Assembly (NCBI GenBank): GCA_023231475.1
Contig: JALJEE010000615.1
Coordinates: 1 to 40,679, forward strand
Direction of reading: 5' to 3'
DNA: 40,679 nt
Source of the DNA: Seison nebaliae
Lineage: Eukaryota; Rotifera; Pararotatoria; Seisonacea; Seisonidae
Part shown: positions 22,509 through 37,734 of the stretch, one piece after another
Position numbering within the stretch: the stretch's first letter is position 1
Layout: every line of letters starts with the position of its first letter
Program-made: the position numbers and the translations under genes
Notes under the pieces: model-generated
What the model was told of the DNA's origin: nothing
The model's database searches: none
What the model saw: the letters and a program-made list of their open reading frames with translations, nothing else

Positions 22509-23763
22509 ATGGGCAATCGAGGTAGCCGAAGTTACTTTAAATGATATAAATGATGATATCTTATTCTTATAATAGTTCCTCCACCGGCTCCCTTACCTCC
22601 AGGTGGTGGTATGTATCCTCCCGGTGGTGGATTTCCACCTCCTTATCCACCTGCTGGCGGTGGATTTCCACCTCCATTTCCACCCGGTGGTGGTGGCGGT
22701 TATCCTCCACCTGGTGGTGGTTTTCCTCCACCTGGTGGTGGTGGTTTTCCTCCTCCTTATCCTCCACCCCCAGGAGGATTCGGAGGAGGGTATGGAGGTC
22801 ATAGACCTCCACCATTCGGAGATGGATATGGACCCGGCGGTGGCCCTTATGGTGGAGGCGATTCGTTCGGTTTAGGTGGTTATGGGTCAAGACCATATGA
22901 TGGTTAGTTTAGGTTTGAAATAATTTTTGATGTTTTTCTTGCTGGCAGATATCAGAGGTGGTGGTTGTGCTACAAAATGTGAAACTGTGTGTTGTACTTG
23001 TTGTCAACCTCCTCCTCCTCCACCTCCGCCAAACGTTCAATCTAATCCACCTCCAATCACTTATATTCAAAGGACTCCATTTGTTACGACGAAAGTGACA
23101 AAAATAGAAACAGTGCCAATGGGACCACCAACCTGTGATAGTTTCACAGAACCAGGTTGTGGTATGGGCAATTCATTCGGTGGATTTCCTAGTTCAATGT
23201 TACCAAATTATGGTTTACCTATGGGTTGTTCGATACCTCAAAATTTCGGTGATGGATGTTGTCTACCGCAATGTTGTCCTCCGCCGTGCTGCCCGCCCCC
23301 GTGTTGTCCTCCTCCGTGCTGCCCTCCCACATTCTGCCCACCACCTTGTGATCCTTGCTGTATTCCATGTTGTCCCCCTGCAGCACCTCCAATGCAATAT
23401 TCAGCGCCTCAACCGCAAATTGCTTATGCTGCACCTCAACCCGCTGTACAGCAAACGATAGCACAACCAGCAGCAGTTTGTCCGCCAGGCACAGTGCCAG
23501 TAACTGTCAATTACACAACACAATCATCAAAAAAACCTGCATGTAAACCAGGGAAAGTCGGAAGAGACGAGAAAGGTCCATTTGTTTATAAGAAGAAATA
23601 TATGTCGTCGGAACTGGAAAACGAACTGTCAAATATTTGTCGAGATGGGGGATTTGCTCGAGCTGCTGCTACAGCCAAATCAGCTCCAATGGTAAGGACG
23701 GCCGCTAAAAGTGGATCAATGATCAAATTCGACTCGAAGAAAATGAGTTTCTCCAAAAAATAA
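22509..23763 (+). CDS. Pro/Gly-rich and Cys-rich protein with a basic C-terminal domain, 3 exons, about 384 aa
   Basis: Model, exons 22509-22521 (13 nt), 22576-22902, 22949-23763; phases agree and intron 2 has GTTAGT...GGCAG borders. The first part is built of GGGFPPPYPP-like Pro/Gly repeats. Next come a Cys-rich patch (CATKCETVCCTCC), a Pro run, a tandem CCPPP repeat, and a conserved-looking basic C-terminus (about 310-384) containing KPGKVGRDEKGPFVYKKKY and NICRDGGFARA. Such Pro/Gly/Cys composition is common in extracellular matrix or cuticle proteins, and the C-terminal block may be a nematode-type ground-like relative, but I am not confident. No signal peptide is seen in this model. The tiny first exon would start the protein MGNR, an acceptable N-myristoylation-like context; alternatively a more distant exon supplies a signal peptide, or translation starts at the Met at 22611. 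Confidence 0.7.
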
Positions 23764-34984: not shown

Positions 34985-35851
34985 TTAAAAGACTCGTCGA
35001 CTTGGACCCATAGTACTCTTCAAGTACAATGCTTTCACATTCTGCCAATTCTTTTTCAACAATGAAACGAGGAAATTGATACCGAGAACAACATTTTGGT
35101 ATAGTTGTTCGTCTGTCATTGCCACATTGCCGATAGCGACGTTCAAGCATAAAACTTTCTTCATTTGGAATTTGACCGTTGATTTTACTTCCTCCACTTT
35201 CTTCAACAAATCTTCGTTGTGACTGACTGATGTGGGGAATTTTCCAGCTTTGTTCAAACCCGGACCAAGTACTCGAGGAATATTTTTGATAATACTATCA
35301 GTTGCAATGAATGCATCAAATCTTCGAGCTAATTTTATAGAAAATTAAGATGAGAAATTTAGAAGAAAAACAAACCCAGTTTTTTCACGAGCTTTTTGTC
35401 TTTCTTCAATGCAGCCAAATTGTCCATAGTCAAGAACTCGATGTCATTCTTCTTCGCCAAATCACAATGACGTTCATCTCCGATGAGACAAACTTTCATT
35501 TGTGGTCGAGGAATGTACTTCAATCTGAAATTGACAAGAATTGAATAAAATTATTTTTACATTTCCTCTCCCCAAATTATTTAATGACTGATGGGTTTAA
35601 GTCTCAAATGAAAAATTGCATTGTCTATTGCACACTCACCTGGTGGTACCAGAGAAACGTTTGTCACGATTCTGGTCATAATTCTTCAACGAGATTTGTA
35701 GTTCCACTGTTTCCAAGAACTTCCTCTTCTTCTCTGTTGATAATTCAAGAACTTCCTTGATCGATTGGCGGAGATTGTCTTTATTGACCTTACTAAAAAT
35801 TGAGAAGAAAAAAATAATTTTTCAGAACATTCCCAAAGATACAAACCTCAT
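34985..35851 (-). CDS. 60S ribosomal protein L10a (uL1), 4 exons, 216 aa
   Basis: Exons 35851-35847 (ATGAG only), 35792-35640, 35524-35376, 35328-34985; 651 nt in frame. uL1 forms the mobile L1 stalk of the large subunit and assists release of deacylated tRNA from the E site. The protein matches the eukaryotic L10a along its full length: [84 protein letters not shown] and the terminal [11 protein letters not shown]. Length equals the family norm (217 in human). The first exon carries just five coding bases, a common layout for ribosomal protein genes. Because no other nearby ATG keeps frame into [15 protein letters not shown], this start is well supported. Confidence 0.96.
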
Positions 35852-36189
35852 TTTTGTATCTTAACACAAATTTGTTATAATCGAAAGTTTGATATTAATA
35901 CTTCTGAAGTAACTGTTATTGTTATTTCGAAATTTCAAAATTAAATTTATTTTTCTTAAGTAAAATTATATTTTATATTTTTTTCATATTCAAATTTTAT
36001 TTTGAAGCTTTTTATCTCTTATCCAATGTCACACAAAGAAAAATTTGAGAAATGTTAATATTTAACATTACACAACATATATTAATATTAAAAGTAAATT
36101 AAAAATTTACAAATTTTATTTTTTGGAAAATTTCAATAATTATTTTAATAAATAAACGACACGAAAATGAAGTGAGGTGAGGTTGAATA
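35852..36189. other. Spacer between RPL10A promoter and fusion-gene 3' end
   Basis: 338 bp between two minus-strand genes; it should hold the RPL10A promoter. AT-rich. Nothing else was seen. Confidence 0.4.
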
Positions 36190-37734
36190 TTATAAGAAAA
36201 ACTTGATAATAAAATAAGTTTCGTTAAGAAATCGACTATGAAAAATGATTTGGGAATGTGTAGTTGTTTTGGGATGATATGGGAAGTACTTCTCCCACAT
36301 ATCTCTTACATATTGAGGTTTATTGGGTTCGATTAAAAGGATTAATGCTGCAGCGAAACGATTATTTCGATTTAATCTCTCGAAAATAATTGGGAGTAAA
36401 CGATCAATCATCAATTCCCTTCCATCGTCATTTCCACCATTGAATGCTAATTTCTCTAATTGAGAAGTTATTGATGTTCCTTCAATTTCCTCATCGGAAT
36501 TATAGGGAACATATGGTGGATTACTTACGATTAAATCGAATTTCCAATCTGATCTAATATTCTCAATTAAATTCATTCGAATTACATCGATATATTGTTC
36601 TTCCAATTCTTTCGTCATTTGAACGGCTTCATCATTCAAATCGGTTGCTATAGCTATTGAAAATGGAGAAGCGAAGAATTTCTTTATAGAATTTATGACG
36701 AAACCGGAACCACTGCCAATTTCGAGAAAACTTGTAAAATTTGAAAATATTTCCGAATTTCTCCAATCCACATCTTTTTCATTTGATGATGTTGCTAACG
36801 ATTCAACAATTAATTGTTTCTGATATTTTTCAATTCCTGAACATAGAGCAAATGTATCGGAATATGGTTTGTAAACGTTCGGATATCTTCTCTCTAACAA
36901 TTCCGTTCGAATGGTTCCCCACAACTCACATTTCCCAATCGATTTCTCCAAATCGATAAATTTCATTTTTAATTTTTTCAAAAATTCTTTTCTTTCTTTT
37001 CCTGGTTTCATTAAAAAATACCGTTTTTCAGTATCAGAATATTGTGTTTTTGATTTTATCAAACATGATCGATAAGAACCGTCTTGCCAAGTCGTATTGA
37101 AACGATACAATAATTCACTTTTCTTACAATTATTTATCTTCAATTCACTTTCATAATTTTTTGTGGAATAAAACGGGAAATTGAATAATTCGCCCCAATC
37201 ATTCTGCACAAGAAATGCAGCGCGGAAAGCAAACCATCCACCAAACTCCGGATGAGACGAACATCCGAAAATACTTTTTAAATTTTTTAATTTTTCTCTA
37301 TAACATTCTCCATTGGCACAATCACAAAAATCGTCAACATCTTTCGATTGATAATATGGAATCTGTTTAGTGATATGTCCAATCGTTTGGAAGAGAAGAA
37401 TTGGTCGTCTCGTTGGAGTTACATCGAAATCATAAACAAATTTACTATTCTTATCTCCAGATATTTTCAGATATTTTTCAACGAAAAATTTCGTAAAATC
37501 GTTAATTGGATGAGTAATTTCTTCCAATTCGTCATCGGTCAATGAGAAGATATATGGAAGAAATGCTTTCTCGAACATCGACGGTTCACTAATTATGAGA
37601 AATGATCGAATATTATCGTTTGATGGAAATGGCTCATATTTCCTCTCATTTATCATCAATTCGTTATATTCATTTAAATTGAATTCGAAGATCTGAAAAC
37701 CAAAATTTTCCAAATTTTTAAATTTCTTCTCCAT
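36190..37734 (-). CDS. MMACHC (cobalamin-processing) domain fused to N6AMT1/HEMK2 methyltransferase, 514 aa
   Basis: One uninterrupted exon with two normally separate proteins. Residues 1 to about 255 resemble MMACHC (CblC), the cytosolic enzyme that strips the upper ligand from cobalamin and passes it on toward methionine synthase and methylmalonyl-CoA mutase. Matches include PFGFEVY-like FGFQIFEFN, TPTRRPILLFQTIGHI, PYYQ, HPEFGGWFAFRA, and TWQDGSYR with RYFLMKPGKER. Residues about 280-514 resemble N6AMT1/HEMK2, the SAM-dependent methyltransferase acting (with TRMT112) on eRF1 Gln: VYKPYSDTF, SAM loop FLEIGSGSGFV (336-346), ATDLNDEA, catalytic SNPPYVPY (404-411), GGNDDGRELM. A linker of about 30 residues joins them, with no stop, intron or internal start of note. 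Start: ATG 37734, next to an in-frame GTG. Both catalytic halves look intact. The gene lies 338 bp upstream of RPL10A on the same strand. Confidence 0.88.
   Translation of the reverse strand: MEKKFKNLENFGFQIFEFNLNEYNELMINERKYEPFPSNDNIRSFLIISEPSMFEKAFLPYIFSLTDDELEEITHPINDFTKFFVEKYLKISGDKNSKFVYDFDVTPTRRPILLFQTIGHITKQIPYYQSKDVDDFCDCANGECYREKLKNLKSIFGCSSHPEFGGWFAFRAAFLVQNDWGELFNFPFYSTKNYESELKINNCKKSELLYRFNTTWQDGSYRSCLIKSKTQYSDTEKRYFLMKPGKERKEFLKKLKMKFIDLEKSIGKCELWGTIRTELLERRYPNVYKPYSDTFALCSGIEKYQKQLIVESLATSSNEKDVDWRNSEIFSNFTSFLEIGSGSGFVINSIKKFFASPFSIAIATDLNDEAVQMTKELEEQYIDVIRMNLIENIRSDWKFDLIVSNPPYVPYNSDEEIEGTSITSQLEKLAFNGGNDDGRELMIDRLLPIIFERLNRNNRFAAALILLIEPNKPQYVRDMWEKYFPYHPKTTTHSQIIFHSRFLNETYFIIKFFL

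Follow-up and report, generated by a model that had tools for sequence, protein, structure and literature searches.

A locus in Seison nebaliae raises the question of whether two enzymes, the cobalamin-processing protein MMACHC (CblC) and the eRF1 methyltransferase HEMK2/N6AMT1, are encoded there as one protein and, if so, what such a fusion means. The window analyzed (40,679 nucleotides, 40.7 kb) is the whole of a single contig (C202) within an assembly of 36.03 Mb in 846 contigs. A 514-codon frame was translated from the minus strand (positions 36190..37734), with MMACHC encoded first, the ATG at position 37734, the stop codon at positions 36192-36190 and a product of 514 residues; the plus strand across 36190-37734 contained stops throughout in the frame that was translated. 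The sequence-only reading of this DNA had claimed such a frame without giving its strand, and both the frame and all of the motifs quoted from it were recovered in the translation. In 200 windows simulated from matching neighbor-base frequencies (Markov-1), the longest stretch free of stops reached 228 codons, and the fused frame is therefore not a product of chance. The gene is apparently free of introns, as judged from the open frame and from the alignment of both domains without a missing block. An AATAAA hexamer (36115..36120, minus strand) located about 70 bases past the stop codon is a possible poly(A) signal; hexamers of this type are frequent in the local AT-rich DNA and one is also found within the fused frame.

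The N-terminal half corresponds to a complete MMACHC domain (residues 12-250, positions 36985..37701, minus strand). The Pfam profile PF16690 matched these residues over profile positions 1-214 of 216 with a score of 136.4 bits (cut-off 27, E = 1.3e-39), so that residues 1-255 do contain the profile match on which the proposed MMACHC identity of this half depended. A search of solved structures (PDB) returned seven distinct MMACHC sequences (best E = 4.8e-22), including 5ujc, an entry named "MMACHC-like protein" that we take to be from C. elegans. The fused protein shares with MMACHC/CblC the whole domain, the QTxxH and HPxFGGWFAxR motifs and the three arginines of the glutathione pocket. These arginines are R161, R206, and R230 in the human protein, as described in an excerpt of PMC10740964, and all three are retained in the alignments as R171 (37222..37224), R222 (37069..37071), and R248 (36991..36993, with a one-residue indel adjoining), each on the minus strand; the human residue numbers were counted by hand along the aligned PDB chain, starting from R161. 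The main difference lies at the end of the domain, where human MMACHC continues into a Pro-rich tail whereas the fused protein carries a methyltransferase. A second difference is a cysteine-containing stretch, FCDCANGECY (residues 136-145, window positions 37300-37329, minus strand), that follows YYQ..DV in the MMACHC half; the six aligned relatives are shorter at this place and cysteine-free.

The C-terminal half (residues 285-514, positions 36193..36882, minus strand) was assigned to the HEMK2/N6AMT1-type methyltransferases based on profiles, structures, and a phylogenetic tree. Of the proteins with a solved structure, N6AMT1 matches it best (six distinct sequences, E = 2.6e-9 to 4.2e-9), and the VYKPYSDTF signature and the GG..GRE block are kept as in N6AMT1 and in an algal HEMK2-type protein from Closterium (P0011). 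Alignment further identified the SAM-binding motif I (LEIGSGSG, residues 337-344, 36703..36726, minus strand) and the catalytic NPPY motif (residues 405-408, 36511..36522, minus strand), and the acidic residue D365 is intact; the fused protein thus contains all elements of the HEMK2/N6AMT1/Mtq2 pattern (VY.P..DTF, LE.GSGSG, D365, NPPY, and GG..GRE). It differs from these proteins in its position behind MMACHC and in its divergence (27-28% identity to P0011 and 33% to pieces of human N6AMT1), and all 13 NCBIfam models listed for this half scored below their own cut-offs. The top model was a "putative methyltransferase" (60 bits), followed by the HemK2/MTQ2 model TIGR00537 (57.6 bits vs. a cut-off of 87), which scored higher than TIGR03534 (49.7 bits). 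The algal P0011, at 79 bits, misses the cut-off of TIGR00537 as well, indicating that this threshold may not suit eukaryotes. Of the two Pfam profiles named in the sequence-only reading, MMACHC scored far above its cut-off, and the small methyltransferase profile (MTS) reached 22.7 bits, just short of its cut-off of 23. A tree of 15 rows (the query, two HEMK2-type proteins and 12 bacterial PrmC proteins), which has long branches and represents human N6AMT1 by two aligned pieces, joined the C-terminal half to human N6AMT1 and P0011 with 100/98 support, separate from the 12 PrmC proteins. An assignment to bacterial PrmC or to a general methyltransferase was rejected on this tree placement and on the motifs, both of which favor HEMK2. 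PrmC/HemK belongs to the same NPPY methyltransferase family but has its own N-terminal domain, which in the fused protein is replaced by the unrelated MMACHC. Overall, the HEMK2-like identity that had been proposed for this half is upheld by the structures, motifs, and tree.

The divergence of the methyltransferase half and its scores under the family cut-offs could also indicate a domain that is no longer catalytic and is kept as a scaffold, for example to bind TRMT112. HEMK2 depends on TRMT112 and acts on the GGQ loop (PMC10804810, excerpt), and the genome that carries the fused gene also encodes TRMT112 (L008) and eRF1 (L016) with the GGQ loop kept. The last part of the TRMT112 gene alone scored 19.7 bits, below the cut-off of 22, while the whole open reading frame reached 25 bits and matched TRM112 in the PDB with E = 1.7e-19. 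A METTL5-like gene is present as well, as judged by eye, and TRMT112 has further clients; finding TRMT112 in the genome is by itself weak evidence against a scaffold role. Even so, a scaffold role appears improbable, given that LEIGSGSG, D365, and NPPY are unbroken and that TRMT112 and the eRF1 GGQ loop persist with no other HEMK2 found to serve them. On the cobalamin side, MMADHC, methionine synthase, and methylmalonyl-CoA mutase were found in the assembly. Genes for 7B2, SMAD MH1, and TMEM120 mark the genome as that of an animal; a search for the nematode cuticle-collagen family returned a single weak match (E = 0.38), and an 18S pattern had no match.

The assembly was searched for further copies in six frames and exon by exon, a design in which a copy split into very short exons could escape. 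The MMACHC profile matched once in the 36 Mb, at the fused gene. The HemK2 model gave five matches with the fused gene as the best (E = 5.8e-15; next E = 0.002), and the PrmC model gave 11 matches, again led by the fused gene (E = 1.6e-12) and followed by a locus that is METTL5-like by eye (E = 1.4e-6). No NPPY motif was seen in the open reading frames at the other four HemK2-model matches, one of which, the PRMT7-like L006, is visible only as one short exon. Eight of the 11 PrmC-model matches have loci, and NPPY was present in the open reading frames read there only at the fused gene; the remaining three lie on C834 (where L006 is located), on C232 (E = 0.027), and on C64 (E = 0.043), the last two of which were left out of the NPPY reading. 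As candidates for HEMK2, the other HemK2- and PrmC-model loci were rejected as PRMT3-, PMT-, and PRMT7-like and one kinase-like open reading frame, and further loci as METTL5-, TGS1-, PRMT4/CARM1-, EEF1AKMT2-, and AS3MT-like; these names were given by eye, and only PRMT3 and PMT were also matched to a library. The search for separate MMACHC and N6AMT1 genes that the sequence-only reading had advised thus returned the fused gene only, and a second detectable copy of either gene was rejected within the limits of the exon-by-exon profile searches. If the organism does process cobalamin and methylate eRF1, these sequence comparisons revealed no candidate for either task other than the fused gene.

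Two other methyltransferases were observed during the inspection of these loci. A 505-residue phosphoethanolamine methyltransferase (L005:385-1902, minus strand) has both methyltransferase domains in one chain. It is closest over its full length to the solved structures 5wp5/5wp4, presumably from Arabidopsis, and matches only by halves 4krg and 4ine/4krh, which we take to be the worm proteins PMT-1 and PMT-2; the predicted two-domain chain is a plant-like layout within an animal. The second is an AS3MT-like arsenic methyltransferase, identified by eye (L024). A link to the methylation of arsenic has been described for N6AMT1 as well (PMC3114810, excerpt).

The junction between the two domains was analyzed for signs of a boundary between separate genes. 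The MMACHC profile stops at residue 250 and the HEMK2 similarity starts at about residue 285, leaving a stop-free linker of 34 codons (residues 251-284, 36883..36984, minus strand) that is coding-like. Its coding log-odds score is 0.244 bits per codon, compared with 0.314 and 0.260 in the halves on either side, and a score at least as high was obtained for 0.285% of 20,000 random 34-codon pieces drawn from both strands of 1.8 kb of intergenic DNA. The lack of a stop over 34 codons is not rare by itself (10.9% of the intergenic pieces), and the linker can also be read without a stop in one of its reverse frames, which scores 0.284. No break in codon-position G+C or in coding score was found at the join. 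The short contig of just 40.7 kb leaves some room for an assembly error that falsely joined two separate genes, but such an error would have to delete the spacer and the stop codon while preserving the frame, and both domains are complete, joined in frame and continuous in both measures; an artefact of this kind is very improbable.

Two separate products could in principle still be made from the locus, with an internal promoter, a splice acceptor, or a poly(A) site near the junction and HEMK2 starting from Met257. In-frame methionines at residues 242 and 257 are possible starts for a separate HEMK2 and a variant poly(A) hexamer, ATTAAA, is located near the join, each of which is weak evidence. 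Met257 sits 30 residues ahead of the VYKPYSDTF signature and thus near the point at which separate HEMK2 proteins start, and the ATTAAA and a weak acceptor-like site (...ACCAG) are close to it. However, the MMACHC half has no stop codon and a separate MMACHC mRNA would therefore lack one, the acceptor-like site is not accompanied by a T-rich run of the kind that inspection by eye showed for two of the three introns in the neighboring RPL10A gene, and the linker reads as coding. A search for the canonical nematode SL1 leader that allowed up to one mismatch was negative, a result that has no bearing on other leaders. Separate products from this locus are thus unlikely.

The explanation favored here, and held to be probable, is a single bifunctional protein, likely cytosolic, that arose when two neighboring genes merged at a dispensable MMACHC tail. 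One chain would be made from the fused gene; we infer its location, the survival of both activities, and its origin. The MMACHC half would process cobalamin, as its conserved motifs and the presence of its partners suggest, and the HEMK2 domain together with TRMT112 would transfer a methyl group from S-adenosylmethionine to the glutamine in the GGQ loop of eRF1, again as predicted from motifs and partners. The two genes would have been neighbors in a compact genome that lost the spacer between them and joined at the C-terminal tail of MMACHC. Residues 236-282 of human MMACHC form a Pro-rich region that is dispensable for MMADHC binding (PMC4705923, excerpt), and the fusion point therefore falls within a tail that can probably accommodate it. 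The fusion may be near neutral or may merely tie the expression of both enzymes together.

The next gene downstream of the fused gene encodes the ribosomal protein uL1/RPL10A (34985..35851, minus strand). Its ATG is 338 bases past the stop codon of the fused gene, a spacer that exceeds the linker in length, and it contains three short introns whose positions were assigned by eye, so that introns do occur nearby. Elsewhere in the window, an open reading frame with CCPPP-type repeats (22927-23763, plus strand) possibly encodes a cuticle or matrix protein and matched nothing in a Pfam search at E 0.1, and a 16-base tandem unit is present in 6.8 copies close to the contig end (40461-40567).

To our knowledge, no description exists of a protein that combines MMACHC and HEMK2. 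The statement in the sequence-only reading that no described protein has this domain pair agrees with the database and literature searches, in which none turned up, an absence that is not proof of novelty. A search of 5.8 billion proteins, in which the 7,999 candidates sharing most words were scored, returned six proteins including the query; the other five were two MMACHC proteins alone and three PrmC-like proteins, and none combined both domains. The database is seemingly animal-poor, as a search with the MMACHC half gave six relatives from 352 candidates. Prokaryote genomes were also scanned with the fused protein by a method that detects only close relatives; none of the 41 pattern matches was confirmed as a relative. 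Titles and the opening parts of abstracts contained no study on a link between MMACHC or cobalamin and N6AMT1; both genes are mentioned together in a blood expression profile whose subject is unrelated, as far as its title and abstract opening indicate, and N6AMT1 occurs together with cobalamin in three papers that, by the same measure, deal with other subjects. A wider search on MMACHC and protein fusion matched 9,369 papers, and MMACHC is absent from the 30 that were listed.

Methionine synthase makes methionine for SAM, and MMACHC and HEMK2 thus belong to one metabolic chain. Functional coupling, in which the fusion was selected as a link between cobalamin processing (supplying methionine and SAM) and the methylation of eRF1 by HEMK2, could act through a local SAM supply, a cobalamin-dependent shape change, or a fixed ratio of the two activities. 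The retained active-site motifs in both halves and the failure to find other copies are consistent with such a link, and an interaction of MMACHC with methionine synthase and its reductase has been reported for the human proteins (Bassila et al. 2017, cited in PMC8085122). On the other hand, MMACHC is located several steps upstream of SAM and does not produce it, no relative shows that the fusion is conserved, and the titles and abstract openings mentioned above revealed no paper on the connection. Coupling as the reason for the fusion is accordingly judged unlikely. Its more specific form, a selected device in which HEMK2 would be active or stable to a degree set by the cobalamin load of the MMACHC half, so that B12 status directly tunes eRF1 methylation and termination, is more doubtful still. 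The sequence-only reading had proposed coupling (cobalamin status acting on eRF1 methylation, or both activities at one site) from the fusion alone, which is possible, but the simpler reading is a merger of two housekeeping enzymes at a tail that tolerates it.

The pairing of MMACHC and HEMK2 looks real from its sequence and may be new. Both halves are well-studied enzymes in humans, and the natural fusion of two genes without other copies is a classic hint at a functional link (the Rosetta Stone argument). With the fused gene, one construct is enough to assay the processing of cobalamin side by side with the methylation of eRF1, and even if neutral, the fusion would show that the MMACHC tail and the HEMK2 N-terminus tolerate joining.
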